A DNA stretch of 26,415 nt, from positions 1-26,415 of the IMG/VR virus record IMGVR_UViG_3300029267_000446; one strand, given 5' to 3'. Source of the DNA: a virus. The number at the start of each line of letters is the position of its first letter. Within the stretch, counting starts at the first letter, position 1. A model generated the notes under the pieces. It saw only the letters and a list, made by a program, of their open reading frames with translations, was not told the origin of the DNA and did no database searches. A program made the position numbers and the translations under genes. This document shows positions 1 to 26,411 of this stretch, one piece after another.

Positions 1-1550
1 AGGATTCTAAAATGGGCTGGGCGAAAGCGTACCGAGAACTGTTTAGCCTTCTCATTGGAGGTCAGGTTCCAAAATGGGACACTAGCAAAGTTCGTCCTGC
101 CGGTGCGAGACTTAAGACTTTTGGGGGTCGGGCAAGTGGACCAGAACCACTTGAAGACCTGTTTAGATTCACCGTTAACACCCTCAGAGGTGCAGCAGGT
201 AGAAAACTTACTTCTCTCGAATGTCACGATATCATCTGCAAAATTGCAGAGATCGTGGTTGTCGGAGGGGTACGCCGATCAGCACTCATTTCTCTCTCCA
301 GTCTCACTGACGAGCGAATGAGAGATGCAAAGAGTGGTGCATGGTGGGAAGCAGATCCACAACGTGCCCTCGCAAACAACTCTGTAGCATATAAGGAGAA
401 GCCAGATCCAGGCATCTTCATGGAAGAGTGGTTGTCTCTCTATAAGTCAAAGAGTGGTGAGCGTGGTATCTTCAACCGTGAAGCAGCACAGAAGCAGACT
501 CGTCGTTCAAACTACTTCCGTCTGGACATGGATGCTACCTATCGCACTCGTGAAGAAGATTGGGACTTTGGTACGAACCCATGTTCGGAGATCATTCTTC
601 GCGACAAGGAGTTCTGTAATCTTACCGAAGTCGTTATTCGCGCCGACGACACGATGGACTCCATCATGCGTAAGGTGAAACTTGCCACCATTCTTGGTAC
701 TTGGCAGTCAACTCTTGTGAACTTCAAGTATATCTCAAGTGAGTGGAAGAAGAATTGTGAAGAAGAACGCTTGCTCGGTGTCTCGATGACTGGTATAATG
801 GACTCCGAGGTGACAAGAAGTATGACAGGACTCGAAGCAAGACTCAAAGCATTCCGCAAGACTGCTATTGTTACGAACAAGGAACACGCCGATATTCTCG
901 GTATTCCTCAGTCTGCTGCTATTACTTGCGTCAAACCATCGGGTACTGTCTCTCAGTTGACTGATGCTGCATCTGGTATTCACGCACGACATAACGATTA
1001 TTACATTCGTACCGTTCGTGCTGATAACAAGGATCCGCTATGCACCTTTATGAAGGAAGCAGGATTCCCCCACGAAGCATGTGTCATGAAGCCAGAGCAT
1101 GTGACTGTATTTTCATTCCCAGTGAAGTCTCCTGACGCCTGCGTCACTCGGAATGACATGACTGCGATTGAGCAACTCGAACTCTGGTTACAATATCAGA
1201 AGCACTGGTGCGAACACAAGCCATCAGTGACCATTACTGTGAAGGAACACGAATGGCCCATTGTCGGTGGGTGGGTTTACGAGAACTTCGATGAAATCTC
1301 TGGTATTTCATTCTTGCCTTGGGACGGAGGAACATATCGCCAAGCACCATATCAAGACTGTACCAAGGAACAGTATGAGGAACTTCTATCGAAGATGCCA
1401 AAAAATATAGACTGGAATGATCTTGGAAACTATGAACAAGATGATAATACCGCAGGAAGTCAGACGATGGCTTGCTCTGGTGGGGCTTGTGAGATCGTAG
1501 ATATTACCGAGTCTGGTAATAGTGTAGAACACTCACCAAGAAGAGGTTGA
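1..1550 (+). CDS. nrdJ: Adenosylcobalamin-dependent (class II) ribonucleotide reductase, 3' part
   Basis: Reduces ribonucleotides to deoxyribonucleotides for phage DNA synthesis, using a B12 cofactor. The frame is open to the left edge, so the ATG at 12 is internal and the gene start lies outside the window. Motifs match the monomeric Lactobacillus-type reductase: GGVRRSA, ANNSVAYKEKP, NPCSEI (codons 576-593; active-site Cys at 582-584 and Glu at 588-590), LLGVSMTGIMD and CVKPSGTVSQL. The C-terminal CSGGAC (1473-1490) corresponds to the redox-active cysteine pair at the end of that enzyme family. About 18 residues follow this pair, more than I expect, so the last codons may have changed when the downstream HNH gene inserted. 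The N-terminal cysteine and the allosteric region are not visible. T4 itself uses class I and class III enzymes. Confidence 0.95.
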   Translation, partial: DSKMGWAKAYRELFSLLIGGQVPKWDTSKVRPAGARLKTFGGRASGPEPLEDLFRFTVNTLRGAAGRKLTSLECHDIICKIAEIVVVGGVRRSALISLSSLTDERMRDAKSGAWWEADPQRALANNSVAYKEKPDPGIFMEEWLSLYKSKSGERGIFNREAAQKQTRRSNYFRLDMDATYRTREEDWDFGTNPCSEIILRDKEFCNLTEVVIRADDTMDSIMRKVKLATILGTWQSTLVNFKYISSEWKKNCEEERLLGVSMTGIMDSEVTRSMTGLEARLKAFRKTAIVTNKEHADILGIPQSAAITCVKPSGTVSQLTDAASGIHARHNDYYIRTVRADNKDPLCTFMKEAGFPHEACVMKPEHVTVFSFPVKSPDACVTRNDMTAIEQLELWLQYQKHWCEHKPSVTITVKEHEWPIVGGWVYENFDEISGISFLPWDGGTYRQAPYQDCTKEQYEELLSKMPKNIDWNDLGNYEQDDNTAGSQTMACSGGACEIVDITESGNSVEHSPRRG

Positions 1551-1554
1551 AAAA

Positions 1555-1620
1555 TCCAGAGAATACTTACCCTAAACTGAATGTTTTATATATATCTGTA
1601 TAGGGTAAGTATTCTCTGGA
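1555..1620 (+). promoter_or_regulatory. 20-bp perfect hairpin sequestering the HNH ribosome binding site
   Basis: The left arm 1555-1574 and right arm 1601-1620 are perfect reverse complements, separated by a 26-base AT-rich loop. The GGAG ribosome binding site of the next gene (1618-1621) lies almost wholly inside the base of the stem, six bases before its ATG. Read-through RNA from nrdJ should therefore hide the site. No T-run follows, so it does not look like an intrinsic terminator. Confidence 0.85.
1587..1594 (+). promoter_or_regulatory. Possible late promoter inside the hairpin loop
   Basis: TATATATA in the loop differs from the T4 late motif TATAAATA at one position. Transcription from it would begin near 1600-1602, at the start of the right arm. 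Such RNA would lack the left arm and leave the HNH ribosome binding site free. The motif is degenerate, so this is inference. Confidence 0.4.
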
Positions 1621-1627
1621 GAAACGA

Positions 1628-2221
1628 ATGAACTGGGAAGAAAAGAAAAAACTTTGTTTATATAAAGGCGAAAGTCAAATAAACAAAAAGTATGGAGAAT
1701 GGACTGTTTTGGGATATTCTAGAACAAAAGAAAAACCTAGTGGTTCCGTAGCGATGTGGAAGGTTCAGTGTAGTTGTGGAACAATATCTGAAACTACATC
1801 ACACAATCTAATATATGGAAGAACAACTGGTTGTACAAAATGCTACGGTAAAAGGCATAATGGATCTAAAAATCCAAACTGGAAAGGTTTTGGTGACATC
1901 CCGTCTAGTCTGTGGAGTAGGATTCTAAACGGAGCAAAGAGTAGAAATATTGAAGTTACTGTTGATATTGAATATGTGAATGGTGTGTGGAAAAAACAAA
2001 ACGGAAAATGTGCGTTGTCTGGAGTTGATTTGACAATGGAGGAGTTTTGGAGCAGAGACTCATGGTCAAACTCACCGTCTTTAGATAGAATAGATTCATC
2101 TAAAGGTTACATCCCAGAAAATGTTCAGTGGGTACATCCTATAGTGAATATAATGAAAAACAGATTTGATACGGAAACTTTCATAACTTACTGTCGTTTA
2201 GTGACAGAACAGACTCAGTGA
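1628..2221 (+). CDS. Free-standing HNH homing-type endonuclease
   Basis: A 197-residue protein. The N-terminal half has a four-cysteine zinc-binding-like segment (CSCG near residue 48 and CTKC near residue 70). The C-terminal half has the HNH-like core GKCALSGVDL, then SPSLDRIDSSKGY, PENVQWVHPIVN and MKNRFD, typical of free-standing phage HNH nucleases that cut DNA at specific sites and spread their own gene. It lies directly after nrdJ; phage nucleotide-metabolism genes are a common home for such elements. The gene is visibly richer in A and T than nrdJ and the porin gene, which suggests recent arrival. The start has GGAG six bases upstream, inside the hairpin at 1555-1620. Function confidence is high; the target site is unknown. 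Confidence 0.85.
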   Translation: MNWEEKKKLCLYKGESQINKKYGEWTVLGYSRTKEKPSGSVAMWKVQCSCGTISETTSHNLIYGRTTGCTKCYGKRHNGSKNPNWKGFGDIPSSLWSRILNGAKSRNIEVTVDIEYVNGVWKKQNGKCALSGVDLTMEEFWSRDSWSNSPSLDRIDSSKGYIPENVQWVHPIVNIMKNRFDTETFITYCRLVTEQTQ

Positions 2222-2242
2222 TCTTACATAAGGAGAAAACAT

Positions 2243-3259
2243 ATGAATAAGATCAACGCTATTATTGCAACCTGTGTTCTCAGCAGCGGAGTTGCTGCCG
2301 CACAGGACATGGACACTCTAGAGCGTGTCCAACTCGATGCCGCTACCCGCGCATCACTCAACGACCAATGGATGCTCGGTCGCGTAGGCGGTTTCGTCCA
2401 AACTGGTTGGGAATACTCAAACGGCGGTGGACTTCCCGCCCAGAACGGTTTCTCAGTGGACCGTGCCCGTCTTGTTCTCGAAGGAGACATGACCGATGAA
2501 TCAATGTCATACCTCGTAAGTGGAGAATGGAGTGATCAGACTTCTACTTTTGACCTTCTCGATGCAGTTGTTACTCTTCGGATGTTCGATATCGCCAACA
2601 TCCGAGTCGGACAATTCGTCCCTCAGTTCTACGATGGATTCGTCAACGATCCAACTCAACTCACAACCTTCAACTACTCAGTCACTGCTCTCACCTTTGG
2701 ACAGGGACGAGGACAGGGTGTCGAAGTCTTCAAGAACATCGGAGACATCGAACTCAGTGGGTTCTACAACAACGGATTTGATGTCTACGGAGTCGGTGAC
2801 AATAACTTCGCAGTTGGCGGTCATGCTCGTGTTCACTTTGGTGATGGTTTCTCTGTATCCGCTGGTTACGCTCTCAATGAGGTCGCGGACTCTTCGGTGA
2901 ACTCATACACCGTGAGTGCTGCATGGCATGACGGTCCAATCGCATTTAATGTTGATTGGATCAACAACGACGAGGGTGATGACTGGGACAACTGGTCAGT
3001 CGTTACTACTCTCGGTTATGAGTGCTTCGACAACTTCCAAGGATTTGCTCAGTGGGAGTATGGTCAGTATGATGGAGATCTTAATCTCCTCACTCTCGGT
3101 GGTAACTACCACCTCAATGAATACGTCACTTGGACCAACAGCGTTGGTTATTCAGTGACTGATCTCGGTTCGAACTTCGTCACTGATAACACTGGCTGGC
3201 GTGCCGGTGGTGAAGATGGTCAGTGGGTTGCTCGTAGTGTAATTACTTTCAGTTTCTGA
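2243..3259 (+). CDS. Outer-membrane porin (OprO/OprP-like beta-barrel)
   Basis: A complete 338-residue secreted protein. Residues 1-20 form a signal peptide ending in VAAA before QD. The mature part starts with a short segment containing DAATRASLNDQ, then FVQTGWEYSNGG, NGFSVDRARLVLEGDMTDE and IRVGQFVPQF, the pattern of the phosphate-selective porin O/P family: alternating amphipathic strands with the conserved RAR region and GQF. The protein ends in Phe (VITFSF), the usual C-terminal signal for outer-membrane insertion. AAGGAG lies seven bases before the ATG. It follows the HNH gene by 21 bases and a terminator follows at 3462. Base composition resembles phage neighbours, arguing for an adapted gene. 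Substrate is not determinable; it could change uptake by the infected cell or block adsorption of other phages. Confidence 0.88.
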   Translation: MNKINAIIATCVLSSGVAAAQDMDTLERVQLDAATRASLNDQWMLGRVGGFVQTGWEYSNGGGLPAQNGFSVDRARLVLEGDMTDESMSYLVSGEWSDQTSTFDLLDAVVTLRMFDIANIRVGQFVPQFYDGFVNDPTQLTTFNYSVTALTFGQGRGQGVEVFKNIGDIELSGFYNNGFDVYGVGDNNFAVGGHARVHFGDGFSVSAGYALNEVADSSVNSYTVSAAWHDGPIAFNVDWINNDEGDDWDNWSVVTTLGYECFDNFQGFAQWEYGQYDGDLNLLTLGGNYHLNEYVTWTNSVGYSVTDLGSNFVTDNTGWRAGGEDGQWVARSVITFSF

Positions 3260-3461
3260 TTATAGAAAGGCTATAAAATGATGCAAAAACAAGAAAAAGA
3301 AACATGTTCAAAGCCATGCTGTCCGTGGGGAGGATCGTAGCGAACACGTTATGCGTGGTGATCGCGCTCCCCGTTTTGATCGTCTAGAACGTGGTGATCG
3401 TCCCGACTACCCACGGGTAGAACGAATCGCAAGAGACTGATAAAACCTCCACACTCCCAGG
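3260..3461 (+). other. Porin trailer with overlapping small ORFs
   Basis: No long gene. Three short frames overlap. 3278-3340 (20 aa) has a good ribosome binding site, GAAAGG, and ends with a cluster CSKPCCPWGGS. 3304-3387 (27 aa) would be a single hydrophobic segment, but its codon use is unlike the phage. 3351-3440 (29 aa, starting MRGDRAPRFDRLERGDR) has phage-like codon use, and its frame is open back to 3282 without a start codon. An 11-base direct repeat, cgtggtgatcg, occurs twice within 3351-3400. I cannot decide which, if any, is expressed. A +1 shift would join the first frame to the third. Confidence 0.3.
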
Positions 3462-3492
3462 CCTCTCCCATAAATATGGGAGAGGTTTTTTT
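3462..3492 (+). terminator. Intrinsic terminator after the porin gene
   Basis: Perfect 10-bp stem (3462-3471 with 3476-3485), four-base loop AAAT, then seven T. The same T-run leads straight into the ATG of the GIY-YIG gene at 3493, so the right arm (GGGAGAGG) is also that gene's only ribosome binding site candidate. Confidence 0.9.
3469..3476 (+). promoter_or_regulatory. Possible late promoter in the terminator loop
   Basis: CATAAATA spans the top of the terminator hairpin and matches the late motif at seven of eight positions. Transcription would start near 3482, leaving an almost leaderless message for the endonuclease at 3493. Tentative. Confidence 0.35.
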
Positions 3493-3942
3493 ATGTACGG
3501 ACATTGGACTGGTCTTCCAGATAATTTTGACGAGGGTGAATGGTTTGGTTTCATTTATGAAATCACCAATGTCGATACAGGAAAACGATACATCGGAAAG
3601 AAACAGTTTCATTCCTACACTCGCAAAAAGGTCAAGGGTAGAACCAATCGCAAAAGAGTAGTAAAGGAATCGAACTGGAAGAAGTATACTGGTTCTTGTG
3701 ATGAACTCAATGAAGATATTAAGAAGATGGGAAAAGAAAAGTTCTCCTTTGAGATTCTACGCTTGTGTAAAACCAAAGGAGAACTTACTTATTCTGAAGT
3801 CGAGATTCAGATCAAACGAAATGTATTGACCGAGACAATGGAGAATGGCGATCGTTTATATTACAACGGCAATATTATGAATCGGTTTTTTCCAAAGTCT
3901 GCTTCCGCTCTTTTACGAGAAGCCAAAGACAAATCAGAATGA
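3493..3942 (+). CDS. GIY-YIG endonuclease
   Basis: A 149-residue protein with the GIY-YIG nuclease core: GFIYEITN (residues 19-26), then YIGKK (33-37), followed by a basic stretch, a KYTGSCDELNEDIKKMGKEKF segment and a later Glu/Asn region (SEVEIQIKRNVL, YYNGNIM). This arrangement resembles a GIY-YIG family I know from T4-like marine phages, where it may be a homing nuclease or a DNA-processing enzyme. The start is fixed by the terminator hairpin right before it. Its 3' end overlaps the convergent lipoprotein gene by 68 bases, which is unusual and would produce complementary RNA. Nuclease assignment is good; the biological role is open. Confidence 0.8.
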   Translation: MYGHWTGLPDNFDEGEWFGFIYEITNVDTGKRYIGKKQFHSYTRKKVKGRTNRKRVVKESNWKKYTGSCDELNEDIKKMGKEKFSFEILRLCKTKGELTYSEVEIQIKRNVLTETMENGDRLYYNGNIMNRFFPKSASALLREAKDKSE

Positions 3943-4105
3943 TTGCAGTCCAAGTGAACCAAGGAAAAATTGCTTTCGCTATGTTCTTTTCTTGTTCTTG
4001 AACTTGTATTGGTGTTGGTTCGGCATTATTTTCACCCTTGAGAGTGTAATTGCCTGCCGCACAACCAGACAGTGCGATGATAATGGATGCGAGTAATGTT
4101 CTCAT
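3875..4105 (-). CDS. Small lipoprotein with C-terminal membrane segment (spanin-like candidate)
   Basis: A 76-residue protein. A lipoprotein signal ends in the lipobox ALSGC (Cys15), then about 30 polar residues, a hydrophobic segment at about 46-63 (FPWFTWTAIILICLWLLV) and a charged tail. An outer-membrane lipid anchor plus an inner-membrane anchor in one chain is the layout of unimolecular spanins, which fuse the two membranes during lysis, but the linker is much shorter than in T1 gp11. It could simply be an inner-membrane lipoprotein. The start is ATG 4105, which overlaps the upstream stop by one base (TGATG), so the two genes are coupled. No endolysin is visible here. Confidence 0.7.
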   Translation of the reverse strand: MRTLLASIIIALSGCAAGNYTLKGENNAEPTPIQVQEQEKNIAKAIFPWFTWTAIILICLWLLVKERKQTLEKTDS

Positions 4106-4557
4106 CACTTTCCTTTCGCCGATGCGTTACCGAAGTAGAAACCAATAATCGTCACAAGAATCTGTCGATTCTCTGTAGTGAACAGATAACCAGTAACCGA
4201 TTCATATGAGACATATGTGTTGGTTCCAAACAAACCAAAGAGATCCAGAGGAGCTGGTTTGACTTCTTCGACCTCTACAGTGATTGGAATATCAAAGAAG
4301 GGTAACAGGAATGGTGCGATGATCGTCCCAAACAGAATACAGAGGACGATGAGTCTGCGAACCACCTTTCCCGCTTCCACACTGACTCTCTGGACCGCGG
4401 CATCGGCCACTTCTGATCTTTTGTCGATGAGGGAGAGAGTTCTCTCGAATCTCTGTTGTTCTGCCATGCGGCGTTCAGCCATCGCACGAAAGATAAATCC
4501 AATTGCACTTCCTCCGACCAGAGATAGAAACTCTGGTGCTAACAATGCTTCGAACAT
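4105..4557 (-). CDS. Small multi-spanning membrane protein (holin candidate)
   Basis: A 150-residue protein with hydrophobic segments at about 10-25, 68-90 and 122-143, and a charged helical stretch between the first two (residues 26-67). Two or three membrane spans and the coupling to a lipoprotein-plus-anchor gene make a holin or lysis-accessory role possible, but no family was recognised. Start ATG 4557 is preferred over GTG 4563 because AGGAGG lies five bases before the ATG; that AGGAGG encodes the last two arginines of the upstream protein. The gene begins three bases after that stop codon. Confidence 0.65.
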   Translation of the reverse strand: MFEALLAPEFLSLVGGSAIGFIFRAMAERRMAEQQRFERTLSLIDKRSEVADAAVQRVSVEAGKVVRRLIVLCILFGTIIAPFLLPFFDIPITVEVEEVKPAPLDLFGLFGTNTYVSYESVTGYLFTTENRQILVTIIGFYFGNASAKGK

Positions 4558-4559
4558 AG

Positions 4560-4892
4560 TCACCTCCTAAACAGGTAAGACATCTCTCCTGTTTGACTGT
4601 TCTGGACAATGATGCTATTTGCACCAGTCTTTTTTACTTGTCCTTTGATTCCGTATGAAGTGTCATCTCCAAGATATCCTGCATATCTTTCGTACTTGCC
4701 TTTACCTTTGAGGCACTTCTGATATTCTTCGGGTGTTACCTTAAAGACTGGACACCCCATGAACTTGTCGTCTGGTTTTTTTCTTTTTCTTACAGGTGGA
4801 AAATCATCTGGTGGAGCCCCAACACCTTTGAAGTTACCAGAACCCACAGTATTCGCACCGAGTTCTTCAGTTAATTCTCTGTAGGTCTTCAT
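4560..4892 (-). CDS. Internal head-type protein with capsid-targeting-like N-terminus
   Basis: A 110-residue protein starting MKTYRELTEELG. The first residues match the T4 capsid-targeting peptide pattern (MKTY, a hydrophobic position, then L/I-x-E), so LTE may be a prohead protease site. The rest is basic and proline-rich (PPDDFPPVRKRKKP), with a C-terminal domain containing CPVFKVTPEEYQKC and YEYR-type aromatic residues; no function is recognised. The start at 4892 is chosen because GGAAAGG sits upstream with good spacing and because the upstream in-frame codons overlap the previous gene. It overlaps the gene at 4867-5400 by 26 bases. Confidence 0.75.
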   Translation of the reverse strand: MKTYRELTEELGANTVGSGNFKGVGAPPDDFPPVRKRKKPDDKFMGCPVFKVTPEEYQKCLKGKGKYERYAGYLGDDTSYGIKGQVKKTGANSIIVQNSQTGEMSYLFRR

Positions 4893-25911: not shown

Positions 25912-25993
25912 GGGTGGATGCCGGAGTGGTCAAACGGGGCGGACTGTAAATCCGCTGGCATAGCCTTCGGGGGTTCGAATCCCTCTCCGCCCA
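25912..25993 (+). tRNA. tRNA-Tyr (GTA)
   Basis: Full cloverleaf: acceptor GGGTGGA/TCCGCCC, anticodon stem GCGGA/TCCGC with loop CTGTAAA, a long variable arm (type II, as expected for bacterial Tyr), T loop TTCGAAT. The CCA end is not encoded. Confidence 0.95.
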
Positions 25994-26001
25994 TATATAA
26001 A

Positions 26002-26088
26002 GGATCGGTGGCAGAGCGGTTGAATGCGGTGGTCTTGAAAACCACTGAACTCGCAAGGGTTCCGGGGGTTCGAATCCCTCCCGATCCG
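26002..26088 (+). tRNA. tRNA-Ser (TGA)
   Basis: Acceptor GGATCGG/CCGATCC, anticodon loop CTTGAAA in stem GTGGT/ACCAC, a long variable arm and G discriminator as usual for Ser. CCA not encoded. Confidence 0.95.
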
Positions 26089-26091
26089 TTT

Positions 26092-26165
26092 GGGGCGTTG
26101 GCTCAATTGGTTAGAGTACCGGCTTGTCACGCCGGTGGTTACGGGTTCGAGTCCCGTACGCCTCG
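26092..26165 (+). tRNA. tRNA-Asp (GTC)
   Basis: Acceptor GGGGCGT/ACGCCTC with one G-T pair, anticodon loop TTGTCAC in stem CCGGC/GCCGG, T stem ACGGG/CCCGT, G discriminator. CCA not encoded. Confidence 0.95.
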
Positions 26166-26180
26166 TTAGAAAAGAAACAT

Positions 26181-26256
26181 GGGCGCGTAACTCAATTGGG
26201 AGAGTATTTCGTTTGCATCGAAAAGGTTGCTGGTTCGAGTCCAGTCGCGTCCACCA
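26181..26256 (+). tRNA. tRNA-Ala (TGC)
   Basis: Acceptor GGGCGCG/CGCGTCC with the third pair G-T, the main identity element of Ala tRNA. Anticodon stem TTTCG/CGAAA with loop TTTGCAT gives TGC at 34-36, not Cys GCA. The CCA end is encoded here (26254-26256), unlike the other five. Confidence 0.93.
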
Positions 26257-26257
26257 T

Positions 26258-26331
26258 GCCCTCGTAGCCCAATTGGCAGAGGCGCCTGATTTAGGTTCAG
26301 GTTGTTGTAGGTTCGAATCCTACCGAGGGTA
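26258..26331 (+). tRNA. tRNA-Leu (TAG), short variable loop
   Basis: Acceptor GCCCTCG/CGAGGGT, anticodon stem CCTGA/TCAGG with loop TTTAGGT giving TAG, G37, T stem GTAGG/CCTAC, discriminator A. The variable loop is only five bases, whereas bacterial Leu tRNAs usually have a long arm. D stem has a C-A mismatch at its end. The anticodon reads CUA (and probably other CUN) codons. Confidence 0.88.
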
Positions 26332-26337
26332 TTTCAC

Positions 26338-26411
26338 GGGCGATTAACTCAGTTGGCTAGAGTGCTTCCTTTACACGGAAGAAGTCGGGGGTTCGAGTCC
26401 TCCATCGCCTA
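26338..26411 (+). tRNA. tRNA-Val (TAC)
   Basis: Acceptor GGGCGAT/ATCGCCT, anticodon stem CTTCC/GGAAG with loop TTTACAC, T stem GGGGG/CCTCC (one G-T). CCA not encoded. It ends four bases before the window edge, and the array may continue. Confidence 0.93.

Follow-up and report, generated by a model that had tools for sequence, protein, structure and literature searches.

The Lc porin, borne by the lambdoid phage PA-2 and expressed in the infected or lysogenic cell, is a precedent for the remodelling of a bacterial surface by a phage. PA-2 is a temperate lambdoid phage with an enterobacterial porin, whereas the porin cassette described here is found in lytic-type, T4-like phages. A viral OmpL-like porin has also been described, in glnK-amtB-ompL clusters of viruses from marine oxygen-minimum zones (PMC8115048). 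The viral OmpL resembles our porin in that it is encoded by uncultured marine phages, has a conserved barrel and has no assigned substrate. The gene context is different, since the OmpL-like porin follows glnK and amtB taken from Bacteroidetes, while the window-type porin follows a class II ribonucleotide reductase (RNR) gene in T4-like phages and has a small Cys-rich partner. By eye, neither glnK nor amtB was recognised near our porin in the listed open reading frames; its neighbours are RNR, an HNH gene or a small ORF, and RuvC or SegE. In BFVD, similar predicted barrels are found for A0A8S5S2G8 (Siphoviridae sp. ctBLh2, 'Phosphate-selective porin O and P', E 1.4e-16) and for A0A6J5L4P1 ('OmpC', uncultured Caudovirales, E 2.8e-12), and these phage porins are 12-17% identical to the window porin. 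Virus-encoded porins in marine viruses are already in print. New are the cassette slot, the Cys-rich partner, the allele exchange, the short barrel and the loci with a beta-helix protein and TonB, and we found no report in the open-access literature of the RNR-linked cassette, its small partner or the phage TonB.

The window, that is the whole stretch of DNA analysed here, is a 26,415-base IMG/VR virus record and a contig of a marine T4-like phage. The porin gene and the genes around it are the following:

12..1550, + strand: adenosylcobalamin-dependent (class II) RNR gene, 5'-truncated by the contig start (PHROG 367, E 1.3e-146; Pfam Ribonuc_red_lgC and RNR-II_ins_dom)
1628..2221, + strand: HNH/endonuclease-VII-like homing endonuclease gene between RNR and porin (PHROG 3322/1035/374)
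2230..2236, + strand: porin ribosome-binding site AAGGAGA, from the sequence; the leader is the same in L007 and L008
2243..3259, + strand: porin ORF, complete, 338 aa, predicted 16-stranded barrel with an L3-type constriction loop at residues 126-156
2243..2305, + strand: putative porin signal peptide, residues 1-21, assigned by eye; the N-terminus has a low pLDDT
3278..3340, + strand: 20-codon remnant of the gene for the small Cys-rich membrane protein (DNA alignment; family alignment A3)
3493..3942, + strand: SegE-type GIY-YIG endonuclease gene, the downstream neighbour (Pfam SegE_GIY-YIG, E 4.8e-41)

A sequence-only reading of this stretch had described a complete porin with a signal peptide, a terminal Phe and a ribosome-binding site. 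The ORF, the AAGGAGA site, the C-terminal motif ...ITFSF and the barrel model all agree with this description, and the C-terminal F is invariant among 15 aligned relatives.

Contigs with the porin were collected by scanning viral_contigs with the porin, its alignments and the small partner. Together with the window and one contig from a metagenome-assembled genome (MAG), 37 distinct contigs carry the porin. In 29 contigs the sequence reaches far enough upstream, and in 28 of them RNR directly precedes the porin; the sole exception, L002, starts inside the HNH gene. The common gene order is thyX, RNR, porin, small ORF and RuvC or SegE, followed by a holin-like gene on the opposite strand. Only about 20 bases separate the RNR stop from the porin start in L006-L008 and others, and co-transcription of the two genes is therefore likely. 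The RNR homologue in L006 matches the annotated adenosylcobalamin-dependent RNR of Roseobacter (marine) phages at about 63%, and for DUF6267 of the window there are matches at 40-45% in cyano-, pelagi- and methylophage myoviruses. An 86-kb record (G002) encodes T4-type terminase, sheath and portal.

An origin of the porin from an assembly artefact or from bacterial contamination has a probability close to nil. Nothing was found in its favour; the 37 contigs show the same neighbours, a 128-kb T4-like record (G001) has T4-type terminase, sheath, portal, DNA polymerase and UvsX, and the sole match in genome_contigs, a 5.5-kb contig in a Flavobacteriales MAG, shows the phage gene order. Contamination at an assembly join, which had been named beforehand as the finding that would speak against a phage gene, is thereby refuted, and the porin gene is truly phage-borne, lying between phage genes in a lytic-type (T4-like) phage. 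Against 50,697 phage isolate records the porin gave no significant match and two insignificant ones (E 0.03-0.05). The L020 porin form and the short barrel treated below had no match in the phage isolate records either, and the L018 porin had none in plasmids. The claim that porins are rare in lytic phages thus holds for the isolates, but not for uncultured marine T4-like phages with their 37 contigs. Six tRNA genes (Tyr, Ser, Asp, Ala, Leu, Val) are clustered at the contig end of the window (25912-26411). In G001, at about 30-44 kb (L030-L031), there is a long run of ORFs whose N-termini look, by eye, like those of glycosyltransferases or sugar-nucleotide enzymes.

The product of the small ORF next to the porin is 58-103 aa long; a cluster of Cys residues lies at its N-terminus, and it has a single hydrophobic stretch as well as a motif resembling LPFSARGVxW...LWD (alignment A3, 12 sequences). 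Of 32 contigs that leave room for this ORF, 25 have it beside the porin. It is missing from seven, namely the window and six contigs that form one close group (L011-L015, L021). For the protein, neither a Pfam or PHROG family nor a significant match in phage records was found. In L002-L004, whose porins are identical to that of the window, the gene is intact and encodes 92 aa. Compared with these near-identical contigs, the window assembly has an apparent 116-bp deletion at 3331/3332, by which the membrane segment is gone and the frame shifted.

The window and L002-L004 carry the HNH insertion, which is absent at the other RNR-porin junctions. In the window with its insertion the C-terminus of RNR is altered, with ESGNSVEHSPRRG replacing a short end, while the porin leader is that of L007, which has no HNH insertion. 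Two structured elements flank the HNH and porin genes:

1555..1620, + strand: extended, nearly perfect stem-loop in the interval from RNR to the HNH gene, which takes in the HNH ribosome-binding site (RNA fold of 1551-1632, -37.2 kcal/mol)
3459..3488, + strand: terminator-like stem-loop with a T run; 13-bp stem containing a T4-late-promoter-like ATAAATA, with the Shine-Dalgarno sequence of the next gene in the 3' arm

The sequence-only reading had given the porin its own terminator. A terminator-like hairpin is indeed present and the layout of 3459-3495 recurs in the relatives L011-L015, L018 and L021, but it lies 200 bases past the porin, behind the gene remnant, and overlaps the ribosome-binding site of the next gene; moreover, terminator-like sites are no more frequent in the region than expected by chance (two found, 3.6 expected). 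The hairpin with its ATAAATA is similar to the hairpins by which T4 late genes are controlled. Its layout is not found genome-wide, and promoter-like sites (8 found, 7.6 expected) do not exceed the chance level.

An AlphaFold2 model of the porin, computed from alignment A2 of 15 phage porins, has 16 antiparallel strands (pLDDT 77.4, pTM 0.73) and is not the poor barrel prediction that had been named in advance as evidence against a porin. The connection between strands 5 and 6 comprises 31 residues with a helix at 147-152 and lies in the place of the porin constriction loop L3. All top structural matches in the PDB are porins, and Foldseek concurs. VIA-align placed OprP first (Z 24.6), followed by Omp32 (24.4) and OprO (24.2), with OmpK36, OmpU and OmpF/OmpC at about 23. 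Since these top matches are tied, the fold identifies a porin without telling its kind. On the strength of the model, we conclude that the window gene encodes a predicted secreted, 16-stranded porin. The fold is that of OprP and OprO (PDB 2o4v and 4rjw), which rank best by structure, whereas the window porin has 338 aa instead of a 411-residue chain and is acidic, with one lysine and no lysine cluster. General porins such as Omp32, OmpF and OmpC likewise share the fold (Z 23-24), and relatives of the window porin pass Porin_4; they differ by a sequence identity of 11-16% and by the phage-encoded cassette.

Sequence families gave a less uniform picture. The window porin alone had no meaningful Pfam or PHROG match, the L020 and L024 porin forms were likewise without a PHROG family, and searching PDB sequences with the porin or with its profile returned nothing meaningful. 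Two NCBIfam barrel models match the window porin weakly, below their cut-offs. The cut-off of Porin_4 is passed by the relatives L016, L018, L066 and L070, and that of Porin_O_P (PF07396) by the relatives L010 and L013 and by three of six virus records searched. The O/P-family motifs claimed earlier for the window protein thus do not show as a Pfam match of the protein itself, but Porin_O_P matches occur in its relatives.

The Porin_O_P matches would be consistent with a porin of the OprP/OprO type, specific for phosphate or polyphosphate, and OprP ranks first by structure, yet tied with other porins. We consider such a specificity very improbable. The Porin_O_P matches in the relatives are confined to positions 20-146 of the 370 of the model. 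In OprP, a lysine cluster lines the vestibule. The mature window porin contains 1 lysine, 11 arginines and 43 acidic residues, with a net charge of about -31, and hence an OprP-type lysine cluster cannot be present. The uptake of phosphate or other anions, which had been proposed with OprP as the comparison, finds no support in this composition. In the ORF list of the window, no pstS-, phoA- or phoH-like neighbour was recognised by eye. The acidic character is common to the family: the 15 aligned phage porins have net charges of -20 to -31 and 0-5 lysines (after residue 20), and 11 Bacteroidota ORFs from the same profile, some of them partial, range from -21 to +11 with 3-24 lysines. Marine proteins are often acidic, and net charge does not fix ion selectivity. 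R74, R76, R121 and R331 are invariant in all 15 phage porins, and R156 and R320 are conserved in 14 of the 15. These arginines could line an ordinary porin eyelet. According to the title of entry 2o4v, OprP has an arginine ladder along its pore.

The porin is under purifying selection, with dN/dS values of 0.085-0.25 in 39 pairs with less than 25% protein distance. Conservation is 0.72 for residues 126-156 and 0.55 for the mature protein, and only 4 of 286 windows of equal length score higher. This conservation of the constriction loop is expected if the pore is used, although it may reflect only the fold constraints of the porin family. Taken together, the probable co-transcription with RNR, the intact export signal, purifying selection and the conserved constriction loop point to a working outer-membrane pore. 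Our preferred reading, to which we assign a probability of roughly one half, is a general, probably cation-preferring pore for small nutrients that replaces or adds to the porins of the host. The porin would be transcribed together with nucleotide-metabolism genes, exported by the Sec and Bam machinery of the host and thus reach the infected cell's outer membrane, into which it would insert during phage DNA synthesis. There it would serve as a non-specific, probably cation-preferring diffusion pore, replacing or supplementing the host porins. Synthesis of the latter would cease after take-over, and the phage pore would keep small nutrients coming in for phage DNA synthesis.

The porin alleles do not simply follow the RNR next to them. 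For 12 non-redundant loci the correlation between porin and RNR distances is moderate (Mantel r 0.44; 75 of 10000 permutations as high), and it is 0.59 (0 of 5000) with near-duplicates included. In L006 and L008 the RNRs match at 93% and the porins at 54%, in L020 and L016 at 86% and 46%, and in L009 and L011 the order is reversed, with 74% for RNR and 85% for the porin. Nucleotide identity profiles place the change at the porin: L006 and L008 have identities of 0.81-0.97 in RNR, 0.40-0.70 in the porin and 0.81-0.89 in the small ORF, while in L009 and L011 identity is mostly 0.5-0.8 in RNR, rises to 0.77-0.91 in the porin and is below 0.65 beyond it. By these comparisons, porin alleles are exchanged, as a cassette in the slot behind RNR, between phages with non-matching flanks.

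Such exchange argues against a nutrient pore in that genes for host interaction show it more commonly than those for housekeeping transport. The swapping of porin alleles at a fixed site, as in L006/L008 and L009/L011, is the main argument for another role, namely that the porin is a decoy or replacement for the receptor and its pore incidental. Host porins would be displaced or their assembly blocked, leading to superinfection exclusion or preventing released virions from binding to debris. That a shorter, remotely related barrel fills the slot in 18 contigs also fits. A decoy, however, would need only outer loops, and the pore-constricting loop is among the best-conserved stretches; furthermore, the porin adjoins early replication genes and not known exclusion genes. 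The receptor replacement or exclusion suggested from the sequence alone hence gains from the allele exchange at the locus and loses from the conserved loop, and we regard surface remodelling as the main rival explanation, possible but less likely. The frequent allele swaps suggest that the surface-exposed side of the porin is, in addition, tuned to the host or to rival phages, and the nutrient pore and surface remodelling may both be true.

In these 18 further contigs, RNR and the small ORF are followed by a protein of 250-257 aa in place of the porin, in most cases ending in LRFTF. None of the compiled contigs carries both porin and short barrel. A profile comparison of the two families gave a probability of 89.8% (E 1.8e-6, 163 columns) with a shared DA-V...VGxF stretch, and the structure model of the short barrel, from three sequences, reached a pLDDT of 27. 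From the profile comparison, the short slot protein appears to be a barrel remotely related to the porin. At a third type of locus (L092, 4364-5914) the small ORF is kept and an unrelated ORF of 516 aa with a proline-rich C-terminus, for which no Pfam family was found, replaces the porin. Because L092 has the locus and the small gene without the porin, the porin is dispensable in some phages.

Three of the 18 short-barrel contigs, as well as G002 behind its porin, encode in addition a beta-helix-like secreted protein and a TonB:

L039:5414-6052: phage TonB gene (Pfam TonB_C, 1.8e-13 in G002), adjoining the gene of the secreted beta-helix protein with a dockerin-like C-terminus

Scanning viral_contigs for this TonB revealed 10 loci (L039 and L096-L104), in several of which the upstream part lies outside the fetched stretch. 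Among the phage isolate records nothing matched the phage TonB at E <= 0.01, and the secreted beta-helix protein had no Pfam family. As TonB is added at some loci, envelope transport seems to be a theme. One could combine all parts into an outer-membrane transport module coupled to the B12-dependent RNR, with an interchangeable barrel, a Cys-rich partner needed for assembly or function and, in one lineage, the beta-helix protein and TonB, which would feed the cell and control phage entry. We regard this larger scheme as doubtful. If it were true, the phage would supply ions, perhaps cobalt or cobalamin via TonB-dependent receptors of the host.

Downstream of the porin two membrane-associated genes are found on the opposite strand:

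3875-4108, - strand: lipoprotein with a C-terminal transmembrane stretch, u-spanin-like by eye
4105-4563, - strand: conserved holin-like membrane protein (PHROG 38283, E 4.5e-20, a family without functional annotation)

These neighbours raise the question whether the barrel and the small membrane protein might act with the nearby holin-like and lipoprotein products to disrupt the outer membrane, as an envelope-weakening or lysis helper; a PHROG 'Rz-like spanin' match was negligible (E 0.6). We judge this role improbable. The holin-like and lipoprotein genes are on the opposite strand, whereas the porin belongs to the early-gene side. Moreover, lysis proteins are not typically well-formed porins in which the constriction loop is conserved. 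A general nutrient pore remains the reading that we prefer.

The donor lineage was sought among 296 Bacteroidota genomes, of which 21 match the porin profile. One of them is the Flavobacteriales MAG with the phage contig; the other 20 matches are weak (best 2.2e-13), and we therefore rejected them as donors and regard them as distant family members. The DAATRASLN-like motif of the porin, a weak host hint in the sequence-only reading, and the dockerin-like C-terminus of the beta-helix protein are perhaps reminiscent of Planctomycetes.

The locus, conserved and exchangeable, was seen in 55 contigs of uncultured marine T4-like phages: 37 have the porin and 18 the shorter barrel. It offers a partner protein that can be tested and a TonB variant, and the arrangement of RNR, small gene and barrel is a marker for a phage group without a sequenced isolate in the collection searched. 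These findings suggest that refitting the outer membrane of the dying cell is routine for lytic phages, with a bearing on how infected plankton take up nutrients and how phages compete with one another.
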